Made by a program: the position numbers and the translations under genes
Notes under the pieces: model-generated
What the model saw: the letters and a program-made list of their open reading frames with translations, nothing else
The model's database searches: none
What the model was told of the DNA's origin: nothing
NCBI RefSeq assembly: GCF_000820845.2
Contig: NZ_CBXV010000008.1
Coordinates: forward strand, 65,001 to 129,000
Length of the DNA stretch: 64,000 nucleotides
Reading direction: 5' to 3'
DNA from: Pyrinomonas methylaliphatogenes
GTDB lineage: Bacteria; Acidobacteriota; Blastocatellia; Pyrinomonadales; Pyrinomonadaceae
In this document: in pieces, positions 15,410 through 18,346 of the stretch
Numbering within the stretch: position 1 is the stretch's first letter
Layout: every line of letters begins with the position of its first letter

Positions 15410-16876
15410 CTAACTGTCCGCAGATTGGGCCGCCAACTCGACTAACGTGCGCACCCCGGCGCCGGTCGCTCCCTTCGAGGCGAAAGGTTCGTCCTCATCG
15501 AGCCAAGCCGTCCCCGCAATATCCAAATGCGCCCACGGCGTTCGGTCGGCGAATCTGCTCAGCAGCAGCGCCGCCACCGTCGCATCAGGACGTCCGCCGT
15601 AGTTCTTGAAGTCGGCGATGCTGCTCTCGAGCCTCTTTTTGTAGTCTTCATCCAAAGGCATTCTCCAGACCGGTTCGCCAGCTCTTTCCGCCGCCTCCGC
15701 GATCTCCCTTGCCCAGTCATCATCGTTGCTGAACAATCCGGCGCGCACATCGCCCAAAGCGACGATGATCGAACCGGTGAGCGTCGCAAGATCGATGATG
15801 CGATGCGCGCCGAGCTGCCGCGCATGGGCGATCGCGTCGGCGAGGATCAGCCTCCCTTCCGCATCCGTGTCGGTGACTTCGATGGTGTAACCAGCTAGCG
15901 TCTTGATGACATCGCCCGGCTTCAGCGCGCGTCCCGAAGGCATGTTCTCCGCCGCAGGGATGATTCCGACGATGCGGCGCGGCAGGCGAAGTCGCGCGAT
16001 GGCGCACAACGCACCCAGAACCGCGGCACCGCCAGCCATGTCAGCTTTCATCTCTTCCATCCCCTGCCAAGGCTTAAGGCAGATGCCCCCAGCGTCGAAA
16101 GTCATCCCCTTCCCGACAAAGGCCCATAATTCACCGGAAACCTCTTCAGGTTCGTAACGAACGACGATCAGCGCGGGCGGCTCATCAGATCCTTTGCCGA
16201 CGCTCCACAAACCGCCCCATCCACGCGCCCTGATCTCCTCGCCCAGCCAAACCTCGACGCGCAGACCGACCGCTGCGCACATCTCCACCGCGCGGCGCGC
16301 GAACTCCCGCGGCGGCAGAAGATTGGCCGGCTCATCGGCCAACGCACGCGCCCAATTCGTCGCTTCGGCGATCACCCGCCCGCGTTCGACCTCAGCCTCT
16401 AAGTCCTCGCCGCCGCGTGAAACGGCGATCCGCAAACGCTCCACACCGTTGCGCCCATCTTCGTCCCGACGATAGAAGCGGTTCTCATAGCGCCCCAACA
16501 AGGCGCCTTCGACGGCCTGACGCACGCTTCTTCGCCGATCATCAGGCAGTAGCAATCGCAAAGCGCGCCATCCCCTTTCGCGCGCCCGACGCATGGCAAC
16601 AGCGGACGCCCGCCGTAGCACTTCGTCGGCGAACTCAGCGCGCTTCCCGAGACCGACCAGAAGCGCCGACCTTATCCCTTCGCGAGTCGCCACGTAGCCC
16701 GATGAAGTTTCGTAACGCTCGGCTTTGAAGGATTCGCCGATCGGCCCCAATAGTTCAGCGAACTGCCGATCCGATCGTTCCTCATCGGCGAAGATGAACT
16801 GGACCAGCGCCTCGCCCTCGGCGAGCGCGTCGTCAACGGCGACAAGTTCGATCTTCAAAGCCGATCTCGAATCCAT
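15410..16876 (-). CDS. pepA: Leucyl aminopeptidase (M17 family)
   Basis: This is a cytosolic di-metal aminopeptidase. The C-terminal catalytic half carries the metal and active-site motifs: GKGMTFDAGGICLKP near residue 254 with its catalytic Lys, DMAGGAAVLGA, and VTDTDAEGRLILADA with the metal-binding Asp and Glu. The catalytic Arg lies in that same motif. The N-terminal alpha/beta domain is more divergent, as is usual. At 488 residues the length is normal. The ATG at 16876 gives the expected N-terminus. Confidence 0.94.
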   Translation of the reverse strand: MDSRSALKIELVAVDDALAEGEALVQFIFADEERSDRQFAELLGPIGESFKAERYETSSGYVATREGIRSALLVGLGKRAEFADEVLRRASAVAMRRARERGWRALRLLLPDDRRRSVRQAVEGALLGRYENRFYRRDEDGRNGVERLRIAVSRGGEDLEAEVERGRVIAEATNWARALADEPANLLPPREFARRAVEMCAAVGLRVEVWLGEEIRARGWGGLWSVGKGSDEPPALIVVRYEPEEVSGELWAFVGKGMTFDAGGICLKPWQGMEEMKADMAGGAAVLGALCAIARLRLPRRIVGIIPAAENMPSGRALKPGDVIKTLAGYTIEVTDTDAEGRLILADAIAHARQLGAHRIIDLATLTGSIIVALGDVRAGLFSNDDDWAREIAEAAERAGEPVWRMPLDEDYKKRLESSIADFKNYGGRPDATVAALLLSRFADRTPWAHLDIAGTAWLDEDEPFASKGATGAGVRTLVELAAQSADS

Positions 16877-16929
16877 GCCAACGACGGACGATATTAAAGG
16901 CGCTGTTAGTTAAAATTCTTACAGATTCG

Positions 16930-16957
16930 TTGACAACTTTCGGCAGAGGGATATAAT
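16930..16957 (+). promoter_or_regulatory. Consensus sigma-70 promoter facing the pepA-recA gap
   Basis: A perfect TTGACA (16930-16935) and a perfect TATAAT (16952-16957) are separated by 16 nt. This is the strongest promoter seen in the window. It points into a 312-bp stretch with no plus-strand gene, toward the 3' end of recA. Confidence 0.8.
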
Positions 16958-16963
16958 TTCAGT

Positions 16964-17110
16964 CGCTCGAAGGCGCTGCTGCTCCTAAGGCAGCAGTCCC
17001 ACAATAGCCTTGAGATTGCCCGCCCGTGCCGGCTCGGATGCCGATACTGTCCCCCAGCGTCGCTCCACCCGAGCCGGCATCAAACTTTCCGATGCGGTCC
17101 ACACGAGCGC
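16964..17110 (+). ncRNA. Candidate structured non-coding RNA
   Basis: The predicted transcript starts about 7 nt after the consensus TATAAT. Its 5' end (CGCTCG, 16964-16969) can pair with CGAGCG at 17104-17109. Inside are a 5' hairpin (CTGCTGC/GCAGCAG, closed by AAGGC/GCCTT) and a perfect 11-bp stem whose arms are TGCCGGCTCGG and CCGAGCCGGCA, with a 32-nt loop. No convincing ORF or strong terminator is present. A closing stem with internal hairpins recalls 6S RNA, but I see no 6S sequence signature. Acidobacterial motifs such as Acido-1 are alternatives. The identity is unknown. Confidence 0.5.
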
Positions 17111-17269
17111 CCCAAAGGTCATCCCCATCGGGCTTCAACCTTCGCTAAGATGGCGCAATATCTCAACGCCCCACGCCGCGTAACCTCCCGTAACCTCCGC
17201 AGAGGCCTTCCGCTAGGATGCAACATCCCTTCGGGGCCGTTTGGCAAAGCGCTTACGTGTTGCGCCGCC

Positions 17270-18346
<1,077 letters not shown>

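Follow-up and report, generated by a model that had tools for sequence, protein, structure and literature searches.

A predicted small RNA gene beside recA in the Pyrinomonadaceae, with invariant C-rich sites that may pair with mRNAs

What is transcribed from a consensus promoter that faces a gap without any gene on its own strand? This question is raised by a locus of Pyrinomonas methylaliphatogenes within the 64,000-nt stretch of DNA that was analysed as a whole (hereafter, the window). The gap (16877-17269) separates the start of pepA from the end of recA, both on the minus strand, so the earlier note was right that no plus-strand gene lies in front of the promoter. That note, made from the sequence alone, proposed that the promoter drives a structured RNA. 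In our analysis a real RNA gene at this recA-adjacent locus is, on comparative sequence evidence, almost certain. We consider that it may specify a constitutive trans-acting small RNA, adjusting mRNAs through C-rich pairing seeds in the manner of 6C/B11, GsrN or RepG (probability roughly 55%). Acidobacteria rank among the commonest soil bacteria; in the open-access literature (subscription papers were outside the scope) we found neither an experimentally studied small RNA for Pyrinomonadaceae or Acidobacteriota nor a description of the RNA beside recA. The features of the locus are the following.

16876 (start), minus strand: pepA (Pfam Peptidase_M17, 390 bits)
16930..16957, plus strand: sigma-70 consensus promoter TTGACA-16-TATAAT, 12/12 match, kept in nearly all scored copies of the relatives
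16964..17090, plus strand: predicted small RNA of about 125 nt, delimited by the positions of the promoter and of a terminator-like hairpin; 78 homologous copies
16966..17014, plus strand: 5' domain, predicted fold, in a form confined to the window's genus
17019..17024, plus strand: unpaired C-rich linker CCYGCC (CCCGCC in the window), probable pairing seed; its C's are invariant
17026..17080, plus strand: 3' hairpin, with covarying helices 1 and 2 and an asymmetric internal loop
17050..17054, plus strand: apical loop UCCCC (in the family N-C-Y-N-C, then C), complementary to Shine-Dalgarno sequences, probable second seed; invariant C's
17081..17090, plus strand: weak U-tract, presumed 3' end, CAAACTTTCC in the window genome
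17270 (end), minus strand: recA (Pfam RecA, 458 bits)

Promoter, fold and ends of the predicted RNA

The promoter consists of TTGACA (16930-16935) and TATAAT (16952-16957) separated by 16 nt, and matches the sigma-70 consensus at 12/12 positions. It had been called the best of the window, and it is indeed the only 12/12 match there, against 0.01 expected from shuffles. For the relatives we scored the 73 copies having at least 150 nt of upstream sequence: 48 scored 12/12 and 22 scored 11/12, hence 70 of 73 reached at least 11/12, and the spacer was 16 nt long in 68 of these 70. By comparison, a score of 11/12 was found in only 34 of 14,600 shuffled upstream regions.

The region 16963-17090 folds with a predicted energy of -55.5 kcal/mol (z = -5.5), and none of 200 shuffled sequences was equally stable. 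From 5' to 3', the fold comprises a 5' hairpin domain, the C-rich linker and a long 3' hairpin with a C-rich loop. In the 5' domain, the closing stem pairs 16966-16974 with 17007-17014, its 5' arm beginning 9 nt past the -10 box, in agreement with the proposal that it starts at the expected transcription start; the inner hairpin described previously was also recovered (16976-16982/16990-16996, 7 bp, loop UCCUAAG). The perfect 11-bp stem of the earlier description (17027-17037/17069-17079) stands, and with one further G-U pair it forms helix 1 of the 3' hairpin (17026-17037/17069-17080). To that description we add a second, small helix on top of the stem at 17042-17062 (17042-17049/17055-17062, one mismatch), closed by a C-rich loop of 5 nt.

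Judging from the positions of these elements, the 5' end of the RNA would lie about 7 nt past the -10 box and the 3' end at the weak U-tract. For the unit previously delimited as 16930-17110, we move the end to near 17090. The long 3' hairpin probably serves as the RNA's own terminator. The weakest point of this reading is the short U-tract of the window, just TTT (17086-17088); many relatives have 4-7 U's, with UUUU to UUUUUUU either directly behind the hairpin or after AGC (e.g., at loci L021, L005 and L024).

As a separate observation, in a sister species (G001, contig 360, 6999-7026; loci L008/L002) a partial second copy of the hairpin 3' arm, GATGCCGGCTCGGGTGGAACGATGC, sits immediately downstream of the RNA.

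Distribution and conservation as RNA

A BLASTN search with 16960-17095 gave matches in 25 of 119 genomes of the family, mostly at the 3' hairpin; low-scoring matches (L023, L025-L028) were discarded as chance. A covariance model of the 3' hairpin (R1), built from an alignment of 20 copies, found the RNA in 77 of the 119 Pyrinomonadaceae genomes (about two thirds) and in 23 of 29 genera, nearly always as one copy per genome and with E-values from 1e-9 to 1e-25. The same model gave no convincing match elsewhere in the class (43 genomes), and a wider model (R2), run over 396 genomes sampled across the phylum, had matches in Pyrinomonadaceae only. We also scanned one genome per species, over 84,980 species, for the exact core pattern, and obtained 64 stretches. 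Precisely, 47 of them score at least 75 bits and are all labelled Acidobacteriota/Acidobacteria or lineages within them, with many Pyrinomonadaceae among these labels. The model does not support the remaining 17, which come mostly from unrelated phyla and look like chance. One genome (G015) has two different copies of the RNA (contigs 271 and 346; L089 and L090), either a paralog or the product of a mixed assembly (790 contigs).

Across the 78 copies, standard pairs occupy 98.2% of the cells of the 3' hairpin (86.4% in shuffles), and double (compensatory) changes occur at 14 of its 19 base pairs. The earlier note had stated that an absence of compensatory changes among relatives would count against an RNA; the double-changed cells are 226, against 78 in shuffles, the covariation score is 0.464, where shuffles give 0.236, and none of 500 shuffles reached the real value for any of five measures. 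This alignment had been fitted to the structure, and an independent first MAFFT alignment concurs, with 97.5% of the cells paired and 9 pairs with double changes. Together with the promoter in 70 of 73 copies, these changes bear out the proposal of a structured RNA behind a strong promoter. As for the strand, G-U pairs fill 133 cells and A-C only 11, therefore the plus strand is the RNA strand. The asymmetric internal loop (17038-17041 and 17063-17068 in the window), with GC facing CWACM, is kept in nearly every copy.

The same data bear on whether the folding could be incidental to a small protein gene or to a site in the DNA, for instance one for recombination or replication, which we consider very improbable. 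Some subtype A copies (see below) do contain an open frame of 40 codons. Nevertheless, the three frames are open in 34, 43 and 13 of the 78 copies, on average near the 33% of shuffles, and no single frame is open in most copies. The hairpin is 54, 55 or 56 nt long depending on the copy, which would disrupt any frame; from this length variation and the lack of a conserved frame we conclude that the locus is not coding. The excess of G-U over A-C is unexpected for a hairpin acting as DNA.

The 5' part takes several forms. In subtype A (36 copies) it is a single hairpin with strong covariation (e.g., U-A, C-G and U-G all occur at pair 12-38, and both A-U and G-C at pair 13-37), whose loop often contains GCCCAUG, followed by CCUUCCGA. 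For subtype B (35 copies) folding points to a three-way junction, in which GGAUG...CAUCC encloses a hairpin (loop e.g. CCCAAAC) and GUC-GCAA-GAC; here covariation is weaker. The window's genus has a third form, distinct from both.

Neighbourhood and independence of the gene

The RNA keeps a fixed site in the family. Of 67 copies, 56 have a divergent tRNA-Phe(GAA) no further than 350 nt upstream, and of 38 copies, 31 have a convergent recA within 2.3 kb on the downstream side. The window's genus retains the recA side, with pepA in place of tRNA-Phe. What stands between the RNA and recA varies: many genomes of subtype A have a lipoprotein gene there, on the same strand as the RNA, many of subtype B have a convergent amidohydrolase gene, and the window has no gene; in one genus, groEL stands where recA would be. 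The lipoprotein (L076:4193-4639 and its counterparts) has about 140-150 aa and no Pfam family, is found in many members of the family, and its gene persists where the RNA is lost.

This arrangement invites the question of whether the RNA acts in cis on the downstream gene, as its leader or attenuator. In favour of such a role, the lipoprotein ORF of many subtype A genomes begins about 20-30 nt past the hairpin, on the same strand, and the hairpin preceding it is terminator-like. We rejected this explanation as improbable, since no gene on the same strand follows in the window or in subtype B genomes (recA, the amidohydrolase gene or groEL being convergent) and the neighbour varies between genera. 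Moreover, strong conservation persists where no downstream gene exists, and the lipoprotein gene stays in genomes without the RNA.

Six RNA-less genomes of one genus still have tRNA-Phe, the lipoprotein gene and recA in place. Because the downstream neighbours change and the loss of the RNA leaves the neighbours where they are, we consider the RNA as an independent, dispensable gene. The promoter in 70 of 73 copies and the hairpin with a U-tract in most relatives likewise indicate a stand-alone gene. Eight genomes without a match to the RNA model (G009, G080, G081, G087, G092, G096, G098 and G104) belong to the same genus as several carriers and retain recA, most of them also the adjoining tRNA-Phe; they are a natural loss clade, useful as a control. 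For tests of the RNA, its position and strand, its ends and seeds, and strains that have naturally lost it are all at hand.

Invariant C-rich sites, proposed function and comparison with known RNAs

The invariant positions of the RNA are chiefly unpaired C's, found in the linker CCYGCC and in the loop NCYNCC. The C's of the linker are present in 78 of 78 copies, or in 77 of 77 where one copy has a gap, and the entropies at its five positions other than Y are 0, 0, 0.34, 0 and 0 bits. Positions 2 and 5 of the 3' loop are C in 78 of 78 copies, and 76 copies have C at the following, loop-closing position as well. Mean entropy is 0.61 bit for paired columns and 1.19 bit for the other unpaired columns, whereas the C's of linker and loop are near zero. 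The 3' loop occurs as UCCCC, ACCUC, CCCUC, UCCUC, UCUUC, UCCAC and CCAUC, variants that remain, for the greater part of their length, complementary to a purine-rich, Shine-Dalgarno-like sequence; the loop variants include CCUCC, which is the anti-Shine-Dalgarno core. Invariant unpaired C's and loop variants complementary to purines lead us to read these sites as base-pairing seeds.

We propose that the RNA is transcribed rightward from its consensus housekeeping promoter, which would make it abundant and constitutive, that the long hairpin probably terminates it at about 125 nt, and that it would act in trans. G-rich mRNA stretches would be the pairing partners of the 5' hairpin loop, the CCYGCC linker and the NCYNCC loop, ribosome-binding sites being the simplest case, so that translation would be lowered or otherwise adjusted, perhaps with the assistance of Hfq, which is encoded in 38 of 40 relatives, the window genome included. 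The conserved C-rich seeds, the presence of Hfq and the precedents of GsrN and B11/6C are our reasons for this reading. Over 42 genes of the window, the seeds showed no clear preference for ribosome-binding sites: that of the loop was weak (p = 0.04-0.09), that of the linker fell short of significance, and a control with the sequence reversed scored equally well. Against a trans-acting small RNA there are also the short U-tract of the window, the internal loop, which base-pairing seeds leave unexplained, and the subclade without the RNA.

The internal loop GC/CWACM may bind a protein. Its conservation, the single copy per genome and the near-consensus promoter in almost all copies, which suggests high constitutive expression, would suit an abundant RNA acting via a protein, as a decoy similar to 6S or CsrB or as a scaffold of an RNP, with the C's of the 3' hairpin as protein contacts. 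We regard this as possible but rather doubtful, given that no Rfam family matches and that 6S RNA is already encoded elsewhere in the genome. CsrA-type RNAs bear repeated GGA motifs, and these are absent from the Pyrinomonadaceae RNA. In addition, the C-rich loops vary, and their U-rich and A-bearing forms (UCUUC, CCAUC, UCCAC) retain complementarity to purine-rich sequence. An unlikely variant is a family-wide housekeeping RNA, expressed at high level, whose anti-Shine-Dalgarno-like sites rival 16S rRNA or which works as an RNP via the internal loop and a protein; if true, the RNA would be a general modulator of translation, competing with 16S rRNA for ribosome-binding sites.

The RNA is absent from Rfam 15, and it holds a fixed site by recA in about two thirds of the Pyrinomonadaceae. 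A search of 16850-17400 against all Rfam 15 families, including Acido-1 and Acido-Lenti-1, gave no match up to E = 10, and at the RNA in the loci of 19 relatives there was again none, just the neighbouring tRNA being found. The earlier note could not assign the RNA to 6S or SRP RNA, and both can be excluded because their genes sit elsewhere in the same genome: neither 6S RNA (RF00013) nor bacterial SRP RNA (RF00169) matches here, the true 6S RNA being at G000:C4:108665-108854 (57.9 bits) and the SRP RNA at G000:C8:628547-628646 (64.1 bits). With 6S RNA the locus would share the general character of an abundant structured small RNA with a closing stem.

Three systems are closer to the proposed mode of action. 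RepG of Helicobacter pylori pairs with G repeats by the C/U-rich loop of its terminator hairpin. The likeness to our RNA would be a C-rich loop in a terminator hairpin, the sequence being compared through Rfam only; to our knowledge, RepG does not have a CCYGCC linker.

The 6C/B11 RNA of Actinobacteria is also a small RNA of about 100 nt with two hairpins and C-rich loops, and B11 can use either C-rich loop to repress a target whose 5' UTR contains a G tract (PMC10470900, PMC4046766). It belongs to a different phylum, and its covariance model matched neither the window gap nor the relatives' loci. The 6C hallmark, two hairpins with about six C's per loop, is absent from the Pyrinomonadaceae RNA, whose 3' loop is a 5-nt NCYNC followed by C, whose 5' loop is UCCUAAG here and GCCCA-like in relatives, and which adds the invariant CCYGCC linker.

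GsrN of Caulobacterales pairs with its targets by an exposed C-rich loop, and BLAST detects its homologs within one bacterial family only (PMC5869019). The C-rich loop of GsrN is in its 5' part, whereas the most conserved one of the Pyrinomonadaceae RNA is in the 3' hairpin, and GsrN genes lie near general-stress regulators, a neighbour that we did not see by the RNA described here. The two RNAs are nonetheless alike in exposing a C-rich loop and in a detectable range that is confined to one bacterial family.
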